This document shows, one piece after another, positions 8,808 through 14,428 of a DNA stretch of 36,682 nucleotides. Source of the DNA: Minisyncoccota bacterium (GTDB lineage: Bacteria; Verrucomicrobiota; Verrucomicrobiia; Methylacidiphilales; Verrucolacustridaceae); contig JASGCJ010000003.1 of NCBI GenBank assembly GCA_030054195.1, positions 1 through 36,682 of the forward strand, written 5' to 3'. Both the position numbers and the translations under genes were made by a program. The first letter of the stretch is position 1, and each line of letters begins with the position of its first letter. The notes beneath the pieces are model-generated. The model was given only the letters and a program-made list of their open reading frames with translations, had not been told where the DNA came from and searched no databases.

Positions 8808-9737
8808 CTATTCTCTGCCCTTAGGTCTCCAGCGACTCATCTTAGCCAAATCCTCCCAAGCTTTTTTCTCCTCTGTGCCCACCTCGGATGGAACCCCCAC
8901 CTCCAGAACTGCATACAGATCCCCACGCCCGCCATCTTCCCGCGGAAGCCCCTGACCCCGCAATCTCAGTTTCTGATCACCCACCGCTCCCGCCGGCACT
9001 TTCAACATCACGACACCTTCCAACGTTCGAACTGGAACGCTTCCTCCCAAAACCATCTCCCAAGGTGCCATCTCCACATCCGTAACCAAATCTGAACCTT
9101 CCACCCGCAAATCTGGATGCCGGGCCAACCGAACTCGTAAATAAAGATCCCCCGACTCTCCCCCACTCGCACCCGCTTCTCCCCTGCCTGCCAGACGAAT
9201 TCGTTGCCCCTCCCGCACCCCCGCCGGCACCTTCACACGATACGTCTCCACCTTTCCTCCGCCTCTCTGCAATGTCACCTCCCTCATGGATCCACGCATC
9301 ACCTCCTCCAGCGTTACCAACAAATCCCCCTCCACATCCGAACCCCTCCGTGCCATTCGCCTCCCCCCACCACTCCTCATCCCCTCCACTCCACCCATTC
9401 CCCCAAACATGCTTTCAAAAAAATCGCTGAAACCCGTCCCGCCAAAATGCACTTCCTCCATCCCAGGCCCAGCCTCACCTCTCCCTCCTCCTCCAGACCA
9501 ACCATATCCACCCCCCGGCACCTCTTGCCCCATCTGGTCGTACTTCGCCCGCTTCGCCGGATCGCTCAACACCTCATACGCCTCATTCACCTCCTTAAAC
9601 TTCTCGGCTCCCTTCACCTTGTCCTTCGCCACATCGGGATGATGCTCCCGCGCTTTTTTTCGGAACGCAGAACGAATCTCCTCCGGCGTAGCCGTCTTAC
9701 TCACCCCCAAAACTTTATAGTAGTCCTGATACTCCAT
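8808..9737 (-). CDS. cbpA: DnaJ-like co-chaperone CbpA
   Basis: A 309-residue J-protein that stimulates the DnaK ATPase. The J-domain is residues 1-70, with the essential HPD in [10 protein letters not shown] Gly/Phe-rich region (about 73-118) follows, then two beta-sandwich substrate-binding domains (about 130-300), with DLLVTLEEVMRGS, VKVPAGVREGQRIRLAGRG, GDLYLRV and GDLYAVLEV. There is no zinc-finger domain, which separates it from DnaJ proper. Its start has GGGAG six bases ahead of the ATG. Its first 114 codons (9396-9737) lie inside the duplicated segment and recur at the start of the chimera upstream. Confidence 0.95.
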   Translation of the reverse strand: MEYQDYYKVLGVSKTATPEEIRSAFRKKAREHHPDVAKDKVKGAEKFKEVNEAYEVLSDPAKRAKYDQMGQEVPGGGYGWSGGGGRGEAGPGMEEVHFGGTGFSDFFESMFGGMGGVEGMRSGGGRRMARRGSDVEGDLLVTLEEVMRGSMREVTLQRGGGKVETYRVKVPAGVREGQRIRLAGRGEAGASGGESGDLYLRVRLARHPDLRVEGSDLVTDVEMAPWEMVLGGSVPVRTLEGVVMLKVPAGAVGDQKLRLRGQGLPREDGGRGDLYAVLEVGVPSEVGTEEKKAWEDLAKMSRWRPKGRE

Positions 9738-11598
9738 ACTTTCTCCCTACTCCCAGTTTCCGCCTGTTGCTCCCTCAGGCCCCAATTCGACCTCTCCCTG
9801 TTCCGACACCGCCGCTAATCCGTCGGTAAAAGCACGAGCCTTCGTATATTTCGGCTCCAATCCCCAACTTCCGTCTGGCTTCAGATACCCCCACTTTCCC
9901 CCAGGCTCTTTTGCCGCAGCCAACCCACCGTGGAAAACCAGCGCCCGCTCAAACTTGGGCGGAATCGCCCACTTTCCCTCAGAATCCAAATATCCCCACT
10001 TGCCCCCCGGCTCTTTCGCCGGTGCCCGTTCATCCCCAAATGGCCCTACCGCCTCCAACACGTCCTGCCCCACGCCCTCCCCATCCTGATTTTTTAATCC
10101 CGGACGAATCTCCATCACCCGCTCCTGTAAATCCATCAAACCCCACCCTCCACTCTGTTTCCACGCTACCCGCTTTGCTCCCAACGGAACCAACCCCCCA
10201 TAATTTTTCGTAGTTCGAGTCTTAATCTTACTATCAATCAAAACCCACGGCATTCCCTCACCCAACGCCTGTACGGCCGCGCGACCATCCAAAAAATCTC
10301 CCGCCACGGCAAAGTCCAACCTCCCCCACAATTTTCCACTCGGCAAAATATAACCCCACGCCGCTGGCCCCGCAGGCTTCTTTGCCTCCGCTTCGCTCTT
10401 GTCCTCCACGACCTCATCTCCCTCTCCGACCGGAGCATCCTCACTCTCCTCTACCGCCGCTAAGCCCTCCGAAAAATCCTTCGCCTGCAAAAACCTAGGC
10501 GCAATCGCCGTTCGAATTCCCCCATCTTGATACGCCACGTATCCCCACCGATCCATGACCTTGACTGCCGCTAATCCCCCCCGCACTTTCCGCGCTGCAT
10601 CAAACTCTGCCTTCTCTGACATCCCCAGCGAAAAACCTTTCGCCTTTTTCCCGTCCGTCGCCTTGGAAATCAAACGACCCTCTCCATCCACAAACGCCCA
10701 CTTCTCCCCCACTCGCACAGGCGCCATTCCCCCCAACATCGAACCCACCTCCATATAACGATCCTGCGTCACTCTCGTTCCCCTCTCATCCGCATAAAAC
10801 CACTCGCCACCCAGCTTCACCGGCACTCGACCGATCCCCATCTTTGCGACCGCCTGCCCAACCTTTACCTCCTCCCCATCTTTGACCTCAATCTTAACCA
10901 AAGTTCCACTCCCAGGTGCCTGCAACATCGCCATCGCTTCTTTGGGGCGAACCTCCGCAATCTTCTCCCCCTTTCCCACCGCATCCCCCTCAAGCTTGAG
11001 CCACCGCACCATCGTGGCTGACCCAGGATTCGGGCCATACCCAGGGCAAATCACATCAAACTGCTTTTTTTCAAACATTCCCACATGGGCTAAATTTCTC
11101 ACTGAACCAAGGACCGACCCAGGAATCGCCGCCCCACCCGCTGGCACCCCTATTTTCACCAACATCCCGGAAATCGGCGACTCAACGGGAAGAACAGGCT
11201 CCACCATCTCCATCTGCGCGAGCGGCTCCCCTGCTTTCACCTCATCCCCCTCCGCTTTGAGCCACTTCTTGACCTTCGCCCCTTTAACGCCTGGTAAAAA
11301 TTCTGGAAGGGTAAACGATCTTTTTAAATCCCCGCGAAATTCCCCCACCTCCTCATACTTCTCGGCTAACCGCCACGTCCCCGTGGTATCCACCATTCCC
11401 CACTTACCCGCACCCCAACTGACCCCCATCCCCAAACCCCAAAGAAAAACCAGAGAAAGCTTCACCCCACAAATTCTGCTTCCCCCACCCCCAAATCTCA
11501 ACCCCTTTGCCGTCTCCCCGCCCATCACAGATACTCGATCTTCCTCATCACCACCCCACTCCTCTTGGCAAACTCTGCCATCCCCTCCTTCTCCTCCC
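9394..11598. repeat. Tandem direct repeat, copy 1 (2202-base period)
   Basis: The sequence from 9394 onward recurs 2202 bases later (9394 pairs with 11596). It holds the 5' end of cbpA, a whole WG-protein gene and the last codons of mqnA, all on the minus strand. Positions 9393 and 11595 differ, marking the left edge. The two copies looked identical wherever I compared them, and every shadow reading frame inside recurs at the same offset with the same translation. Only three bases, CCC, are shared at the join. Confidence 0.95.
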
Positions 11599-11939
11599 AT
11601 TCCCCCAAACATGCTTTCAAAAAAATCGCTGAAACCCGTCCCGCCAAAATGCACTTCCTCCATCCCAGGCCCAGCCTCACCTCTCCCTCCTCCTCCAGAC
11701 CAACCATATCCACCCCCCGGCACCTCTTGCCCCATCTGGTCGTACTTCGCCCGCTTCGCCGGATCGCTCAACACCTCATACGCCTCATTCACCTCCTTAA
11801 ACTTCTCGGCTCCCTTCACCTTGTCCTTCGCCACATCGGGATGATGCTCCCGCGCTTTTTTTCGGAACGCAGAACGAATCTCCTCCGGCGTAGCCGTCTT
11901 ACTCACCCCCAAAACTTTATAGTAGTCCTGATACTCCAT
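9747..11939 (-). CDS. Chimeric J-domain/WG-repeat protein made by the duplication
   Basis: A 730-residue frame with three parts. Residues 1-114 are identical to the start of CbpA (J-domain with HPD, plus the Gly/Phe region to FGGMG). Residues 115-138 are a linker read from the 3' end of mqnA in a different frame. Residues 139-730 are a complete copy of the WG protein, including its hydrophobic export segment and two lipoyl-like domains. The second WG copy could also be made alone from its own ATG at 11525. If the full chimera is made, the hydrophobic segment would act as a membrane anchor with the J-domain inside the cell and the WG part outside. It keeps the cbpA ribosome binding site. It may instead be an assembly artefact; see the findings. 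Confidence 0.7.
11525..11598 (-). pseudogene. mqnA: 3' fragment of mqnA left at the duplication join
   Basis: The last 23 or so codons of mqnA (ending [10 protein letters not shown], then TGA) are repeated here, cut off from the rest of the gene. The stop still overlaps the ATG of the second WG copy as TGATG. No start remains in this frame that would give an MqnA product; the chimera reads through it in another frame. Confidence 0.85.
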
Positions 11940-13800
11940 ACTTTCTCCCTACTCCCAGTTTCCGCCTGTTGCTCCCTCAGGCCCCAATTCGACCTCTCCC
12001 TGTTCCGACACCGCCGCTAATCCGTCGGTAAAAGCACGAGCCTTCGTATATTTCGGCTCCAATCCCCAACTTCCGTCTGGCTTCAGATACCCCCACTTTC
12101 CCCCAGGCTCTTTTGCCGCAGCCAACCCACCGTGGAAAACCAGCGCCCGCTCAAACTTGGGCGGAATCGCCCACTTTCCCTCAGAATCCAAATATCCCCA
12201 CTTGCCCCCCGGCTCTTTCGCCGGTGCCCGTTCATCCCCAAATGGCCCTACCGCCTCCAACACGTCCTGCCCCACGCCCTCCCCATCCTGATTTTTTAAT
12301 CCCGGACGAATCTCCATCACCCGCTCCTGTAAATCCATCAAACCCCACCCTCCACTCTGTTTCCACGCTACCCGCTTTGCTCCCAACGGAACCAACCCCC
12401 CATAATTTTTCGTAGTTCGAGTCTTAATCTTACTATCAATCAAAACCCACGGCATTCCCTCACCCAACGCCTGTACGGCCGCGCGACCATCCAAAAAATC
12501 TCCCGCCACGGCAAAGTCCAACCTCCCCCACAATTTTCCACTCGGCAAAATATAACCCCACGCCGCTGGCCCCGCAGGCTTCTTTGCCTCCGCTTCGCTC
12601 TTGTCCTCCACGACCTCATCTCCCTCTCCGACCGGAGCATCCTCACTCTCCTCTACCGCCGCTAAGCCCTCCGAAAAATCCTTCGCCTGCAAAAACCTAG
12701 GCGCAATCGCCGTTCGAATTCCCCCATCTTGATACGCCACGTATCCCCACCGATCCATGACCTTGACTGCCGCTAATCCCCCCCGCACTTTCCGCGCTGC
12801 ATCAAACTCTGCCTTCTCTGACATCCCCAGCGAAAAACCTTTCGCCTTTTTCCCGTCCGTCGCCTTGGAAATCAAACGACCCTCTCCATCCACAAACGCC
12901 CACTTCTCCCCCACTCGCACAGGCGCCATTCCCCCCAACATCGAACCCACCTCCATATAACGATCCTGCGTCACTCTCGTTCCCCTCTCATCCGCATAAA
13001 ACCACTCGCCACCCAGCTTCACCGGCACTCGACCGATCCCCATCTTTGCGACCGCCTGCCCAACCTTTACCTCCTCCCCATCTTTGACCTCAATCTTAAC
13101 CAAAGTTCCACTCCCAGGTGCCTGCAACATCGCCATCGCTTCTTTGGGGCGAACCTCCGCAATCTTCTCCCCCTTTCCCACCGCATCCCCCTCAAGCTTG
13201 AGCCACCGCACCATCGTGGCTGACCCAGGATTCGGGCCATACCCAGGGCAAATCACATCAAACTGCTTTTTTTCAAACATTCCCACATGGGCTAAATTTC
13301 TCACTGAACCAAGGACCGACCCAGGAATCGCCGCCCCACCCGCTGGCACCCCTATTTTCACCAACATCCCGGAAATCGGCGACTCAACGGGAAGAACAGG
13401 CTCCACCATCTCCATCTGCGCGAGCGGCTCCCCTGCTTTCACCTCATCCCCCTCCGCTTTGAGCCACTTCTTGACCTTCGCCCCTTTAACGCCTGGTAAA
13501 AATTCTGGAAGGGTAAACGATCTTTTTAAATCCCCGCGAAATTCCCCCACCTCCTCATACTTCTCGGCTAACCGCCACGTCCCCGTGGTATCCACCATTC
13601 CCCACTTACCCGCACCCCAACTGACCCCCATCCCCAAACCCCAAAGAAAAACCAGAGAAAGCTTCACCCCACAAATTCTGCTTCCCCCACCCCCAAATCT
13701 CAACCCCTTTGCCGTCTCCCCGCCCATCACAGATACTCGATCTTCCTCATCACCACCCCACTCCTCTTGGCAAACTCTGCCATCCCCTCCTTCTCCTCCC
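11596..13800. repeat. Tandem direct repeat, copy 2 (2202-base period)
   Basis: Copy 2 of the duplicated segment. Its right edge lies inside mqnA: after CTTCTCCTCCC the sequence continues GACCTAACTC here but ATTCCCCC at the end of copy 1. The CCC at 11596-11598 belongs to both copies. The arrangement is strictly head to tail, with no transposase, target-site duplication or terminal inverted repeats at the edges. This favours replication slippage or microhomology-mediated joining, or an assembly error, over a mobile element. Confidence 0.95.
11949..13727 (-). CDS. Exported WG-repeat protein with two lipoyl-like domains
   Basis: A 592-residue protein. The chosen ATG at 13727 overlaps the mqnA stop as TGATG; the frame stays open to 13892 but that part lies over mqnA. 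Residues 20-40 ([17 protein letters not shown]) form a probable signal peptide or anchor. A first WG repeat ([11 protein letters not shown], 41-51) is followed by two lipoyl/biotinyl-like domains (about 71-141 and 157-229). These keep the fold pattern [20 protein letters not shown] and [20 protein letters not shown]. At the position of the modified lysine the first has Glu109 and the second Glu196 (next to Lys195), so neither looks lipoylated. At least seven more WG-type repeats follow (near 241, 275, 326, 389, 460, 509 and 544). WG repeats are thought to be protein-binding beta modules. The function is unknown. Confidence 0.85.
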   Translation of the reverse strand: MGGETAKGLRFGGGGSRICGVKLSLVFLWGLGMGVSWGAGKWGMVDTTGTWRLAEKYEEVGEFRGDLKRSFTLPEFLPGVKGAKVKKWLKAEGDEVKAGEPLAQMEMVEPVLPVESPISGMLVKIGVPAGGAAIPGSVLGSVRNLAHVGMFEKKQFDVICPGYGPNPGSATMVRWLKLEGDAVGKGEKIAEVRPKEAMAMLQAPGSGTLVKIEVKDGEEVKVGQAVAKMGIGRVPVKLGGEWFYADERGTRVTQDRYMEVGSMLGGMAPVRVGEKWAFVDGEGRLISKATDGKKAKGFSLGMSEKAEFDAARKVRGGLAAVKVMDRWGYVAYQDGGIRTAIAPRFLQAKDFSEGLAAVEESEDAPVGEGDEVVEDKSEAEAKKPAGPAAWGYILPSGKLWGRLDFAVAGDFLDGRAAVQALGEGMPWVLIDSKIKTRTTKNYGGLVPLGAKRVAWKQSGGWGLMDLQERVMEIRPGLKNQDGEGVGQDVLEAVGPFGDERAPAKEPGGKWGYLDSEGKWAIPPKFERALVFHGGLAAAKEPGGKWGYLKPDGSWGLEPKYTKARAFTDGLAAVSEQGEVELGPEGATGGNWE

Positions 13801-14428
13801 GACCTAACTCGTACCGAATGCACTTCGTCAGATACTCCTTTTCCATCTCCCCTTCTGCTAGTTCTGCCCGCTTTGCGATTCCTGCCAAACACTCCTTACG
13901 AAACTTTTTCACCTCTCCCTCATTCGGTCGAAAGCCCTCCCGCATCGCCCATACGGCGAAAACAAACGGCTTTCCCGTCCAATCCCACCAAGCTTTTCCC
14001 AAATCGGTCACTCCCCTTCCCTTCCTTTCCGTCCACTCCCGAAGCGCCTCATCCCCAATACGCAACCGCGCTTCCCCATCCTCTCTCTCCTCCAACTTCA
14101 GCCCCCACGCCCCTTTCGAAACTACCCTCCACAACTGAACCGAACTCATCGAATGAGGAGTCAGTGAAATCCCCCCACACTCCACCAACGGTTTGTCATG
14201 AAATACCGCAACACTTCTAACCTCCCCCCGCGATCCAACCGCCAAACCATCCACCACCCGATAGCTGGGTCCAGTCAAAATCTCCCATACTGGCACCAAC
14301 GCCAAATCCACCTCCCCACGCTTCAACCTCCCGACTAAATCCTTTGGATGATCCCAAACTACTTCTCCTACCTTCCAACTCACTCCAAAAGGTTTTGCAT
14401 GATCATAGGGAACACATCCAATTCTCAT
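13727..14428 (-). CDS. mqnA: Chorismate dehydratase MqnA (futalosine pathway)
   Basis: MqnA dehydrates chorismate to 3-[(1-carboxyvinyl)oxy]benzoate, the first step of the futalosine route to menaquinone. The 233-residue protein has the periplasmic-binding-protein-like fold landmarks of the family: GEVDLALVPVWEIL, VDGLAVGSRGEVRSVAVF, ISLTPHSMSSVQL, ARLRIGDEAL and DLGKAWWDWTGKPFVFAVW. It is somewhat short for the family. It lies downstream of mqnP and mqnE on the same strand, and its stop overlaps the start of the WG-protein gene by one base (TGATG). The 95-base gap upstream contains a perfect inverted repeat. The other pathway genes (mqnB, mqnC, mqnD) are not in the window. Confidence 0.92.
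   Translation of the reverse strand: MRIGCVPYDHAKPFGVSWKVGEVVWDHPKDLVGRLKRGEVDLALVPVWEILTGPSYRVVDGLAVGSRGEVRSVAVFHDKPLVECGGISLTPHSMSSVQLWRVVSKGAWGLKLEEREDGEARLRIGDEALREWTERKGRGVTDLGKAWWDWTGKPFVFAVWAMREGFRPNEGEVKKFRKECLAGIAKRAELAEGEMEKEYLTKCIRYELGREEKEGMAEFAKRSGVVMRKIEYL

Follow-up and report, generated by a model that had tools for sequence, protein, structure and literature searches.

A perfect direct repeat with a period of 2,202 bp, located in the binned draft genome of a bacterium of the Opitutales type of Verrucomicrobia (100 contigs, 1.87 Mb, 87% complete), is probably the product of a short-junction tandem duplication that some or all of the sampled cells carry. Our analysis suggests that a single slippage or template-switch event produced it and that the two-copy arrangement of the contig is the work of the assembler. 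The window analysed here is the first 36,682 nucleotides of a 96,352-base contig. Self-comparison of the window shows that the two copies agree over 2,205 bases with 0 mismatches, and chance is excluded as the source of such a repeat. Whole-genome search places the unit at these two adjacent positions only (Table 1), and the 19-bp string spanning the junction occurs once in the genome. No second repeat of at least 30 bases was found by a 30-mer search of the window, and a 305-kb sample of this genome contained no other repeat longer than 62 bp. An exact duplication of 2202 bases with a three-base join, its left edge in cbpA and its right edge in mqnA, had been described in the initial annotation, and both the repeat and its edges are borne out by our comparison.

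Table 1. Features of the duplicated locus (positions in the window).
Feature	Position	Strand	Remarks
Repeat copy 1	9394-11598		From the left edge in cbpA across the WG gene; includes the final 74 bases of mqnA
Repeat copy 2	11596-13800		Identical to copy 1; right edge in mqnA
Join	11596-11598		CCC common to both copies
Imperfect repeat, left-edge member	9378-9396	+	CATCCCCTCC-ACTCCACCC; 17/20 identity with 13781-13800
Imperfect repeat, right-edge member	13781-13800	+	CATCCCCTCCTTCTCCTCCC; occurs also at the join, 11579-11598
mqnA	13727-14428	-	233 aa, whole; PF02621 (VitK2_biosynth), E 5.5e-30
WG-repeat gene, upstream copy	11949-13727	-	592 aa from ATG 13727; 572 aa from GTG 13667
Fusion ORF	9747-11939	-	730 aa; CbpA J domain and second WG copy, in frame
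cbpA	8808-9737	-	309 aa, whole; PF00226 (DnaJ) and PF01556 (DnaJ_C)

All genes of the locus are read from the minus strand in the order mqnA, WG-repeat gene and cbpA. The unit has its right edge within the 3' end of mqnA and its left edge within the G-rich linker of cbpA, and the WG-repeat gene is the sole whole gene that is doubled. Open reading frames and Pfam domains confirm the earlier statement that mqnA, the WG gene and cbpA all remain whole. Within the unit, the WG gene is preceded by about 73 bases if it starts at ATG 13727 and by 133 if it starts at GTG 13667; the latter start is favoured because four relatives carry a stop just before it. Coding effects of the duplication are limited to the second WG gene and to an ORF in which CbpA is fused to it, present beside the intact cbpA and mqnA. 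This fusion ORF consists of cbpA codons 1 to about 115 (the J domain and the G-rich part), a stretch of about 23 codons in which the mqnA tail is translated out of its own frame, and the whole second WG copy. Pfam recognises in it DnaJ, two Biotin_lipoyl-like hits and WG repeats, with no internal stop. The fusion and the imperfect repeat at the join described below are the two features that the initial annotation had overlooked.

The WG-repeat protein (11949-13667, minus strand, the second copy being identical) contains two stretches that resemble Biotin_lipoyl domains, but the lysine motif typical of such domains is degenerate in them, as seen in close relatives. In the second stretch, 12 of the 12 aligned relatives are without the lysine, which suggests that it may form a structural barrel-sandwich fold and not a cofactor carrier. 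The case of the first stretch is less clear, as it reads VELKEP or similar in five more distant relatives. Between 8000 and 14000 the minus, coding strand is very G-rich, with a strong GC skew of about -0.50 to -0.53 per kb.

The join had been described as three shared bases, CCC. These bases are indeed common to both copies, but the description is incomplete: CCC is the terminal part of an imperfect repeat (CATCCCCTCC..CTCC.CCC) with one member at each edge of the unit. Once the two edges are aligned at the join, 17 of 20 columns are common to them. Positions drawn at random from this C/T-rich stretch score as high with P about 0.0012-0.0015, so that chance would give such a match in about 1 of 700-900 tries. 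Bare microhomology of at least 3 bases is found in 8% of random pairs in the region and is hence weak on its own. The sequence at the join follows the right-edge version through CCC and then continues as the left-edge one, as would be expected if a nascent strand had slipped from the right-edge repeat back to the left-edge repeat. Homology of 17/20 between the edges is not expected from a random misjoin of ends, and it therefore speaks for a genuine event of slippage or template switching. In such an event, two imperfect C/T-rich repeats of about 20 bp each, one in mqnA and the other in cbpA, would have served as the sites, and a single exchange between them would have been resolved in the terminal CCC. 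The resulting tandem duplication of 2,202 bp would then be carried by the sampled population, or at least by a part of it.

Other origins for the edges were considered. The earlier statement that no mobile element or terminal repeat is present agrees with our searches, in which the window contained no tRNA, the Pfam hits of the genes in the unit included no transposase or recombinase, and the edges of the unit showed no tandem array; an origin from a mobile element, a tRNA or a terminal repeat is rejected on these grounds. An extended G-quadruplex motif covers 9363-9404 at the left edge. We rejected it as the cause of this edge because the motif is not distinctive, 31 of its kind being present on that strand within the window.

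How the record was assembled determines what the identity of the copies can mean. Each of the ten N-runs sampled is exactly 100 Ns long, and five of them have an identical 55-mer on both sides. One such gap (36683-36782), with the same 55-mer on either side, lies just beyond the end of the window. Gaps of this kind insert false 55-bp duplications into the record. In file order, the contigs form classes within each of which size declines without exception, as with length-rank names sorted alphabetically (chance about 6e-10). Together, the 55-mer flanks and the rank-ordered names point to a short-read assembly on a k-mer graph by an assembler of the metaSPAdes/SPAdes type with a final k of 55. 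The contig ranks also imply an assembly far larger than the bin, so an origin from single-cell MDA was judged unlikely.

In a short-read de Bruijn graph an identical sequence of 2.2 kb is stored once, and two copies in a contig represent a loop that is walked twice. Differences between the two copies would collapse in such a graph. The two exact copies in this contig were therefore apparently written by the assembler passing twice through a loop, and the number two would be its choice and not a measurement. Since both copies would be the same graph path, their exact identity is uninformative on age or selection. Thus, the earlier proposal that identity implies a very young duplication or one under active selection is unsupported, whereas the assembly artefact that it also named was rightly kept in view. 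Likewise, the remark that the copies look identical holds for the letters of the record but not as independent evidence on the DNA. More generally, a perfect tandem duplication of kilobase scale in a short-read metagenome assembly is no evidence of youth or selection.

No Ns are present at the join, in contrast to the 100-N scaffold gaps. The three exact bases shared there are far fewer than k=55, which means that k-mers from reads spanning the junction would have been required. We consider it likely that the junction is real, at least for a part of the population sampled. A pure artefact, in which all cells carry a single copy and a false back-link arose from a graph error or from library chimeras formed when PCR switched templates within the imperfect repeat, is an unlikely alternative. 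Homology of 17/20 would promote PCR chimeras as well, contigs of relatives repeatedly break at the left edge, and every relative readable across the locus has a single copy. However, a chimera would have to be abundant enough to pass the coverage filters of the assembler, and the 305 kb sampled from the genome hold no other duplication of this kind.

It is less probable still that the junction is real but stems from an excised circle of 2,202 bp, a longer array or a minority strain, the main chromosome being single copy. A short-read graph with one loop would look the same for these arrangements as for a tandem of two copies. However, the unit carries no replication or mobility gene, and the junction was absent from a viral contig collection. 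A tandem duplication by slippage or template switching, with some cells probably carrying two copies, accounts better for the locus.

Comparison with close genomes, which had been proposed as a check, indicates that the duplication is derived. The cbpA-WG region is single copy in nine genomes of the same genus, mqnA being included in this comparison only where the relative is close enough to align, and this indicates that the single-copy state is ancestral. Across the full locus, identity to genomes of the genus does not exceed about 83%, and several relatives align straight through both edges without interruption. The named counterparts of the relatives are mostly freshwater bins of Verrucomicrobia subdivision 6; a second independent assembly of the same species was not found. 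Recurrent duplication within the genus was not seen among the relatives examined. In one genome, mqnA and WG lie on two contigs with an identity of about 84-85%; the additional contig looks like that of another species of the genus and is probably contamination of the bin.

In four other relatives the contigs end within about 80 bases of the left edge. Their breakpoints fall in the G-rich cbpA linker (homologous to about 9360-9460), pointing to sequencing trouble on G-rich DNA. In one of the four, two contigs overlap in the linker without an exact match of their ends. Because the short-read contigs of relatives often break there, trouble in assembly at the left edge is plausible here also.

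We see very little likelihood that the duplication reflects a selected increase in WG gene copies or a membrane-anchored fusion of the J domain with WG repeats that has a function. In favour of these readings, no whole gene other than the WG gene is doubled, the genus is rich in WG repeats, and the fusion runs in frame for 730 aa without a stop. However, a join falls in frame by chance about once in three, none of the relatives read at the locus has the fusion, and the identity of the copies carries no signal of selection. The fusion ORF can be regarded as in frame by chance, and the duplication is explicable without any function. Least credible of all is the view that a natural, fixed duplication in a freshwater lineage of Verrucomicrobia has been caught at the birth of a new membrane-anchored J-domain::WG fusion beside intact CbpA and WG proteins.

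The locus shows two direct copies side by side, edges that lack a mobile element, a join in short or imperfect homology and a single-copy ancestral state. The duplication, if real, is most likely of the ordinary short-junction type, and nothing suggests a dedicated mechanism or function. If the junction is present in the reads, the locus would offer, from an uncultured lineage, a small and clean case in which a duplication has imperfect C/T-rich repeats at its ends. The record resembles loop unrolling by metaSPAdes in its 100-N gaps with identical 55-bp flanks, its contig names ranked by length and its copies exceeding any short read. It differs from the usual outcome of short-read de Bruijn assembly, in which most repeats collapse and are not duplicated. 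Among known biological systems, duplications with 0-5 bp of common sequence at the join have been described in Acinetobacter baylyi (PMC9997567), and microhomology has been reported at the junctions of lac amplification in E. coli (PMC3161906). The unit described here is like the duplications of Acinetobacter, E. coli and Salmonella in being a direct tandem without a mobile element, in having very few exactly matching bases where the copies meet, and in its edges within genes, preserved parent genes and hybrid gene at the join. Unlike the amplicons of the Acinetobacter Ben+ system, which span 12-290 kb (PMC9997567), it measures 2.2 kb and is known from an assembly alone.
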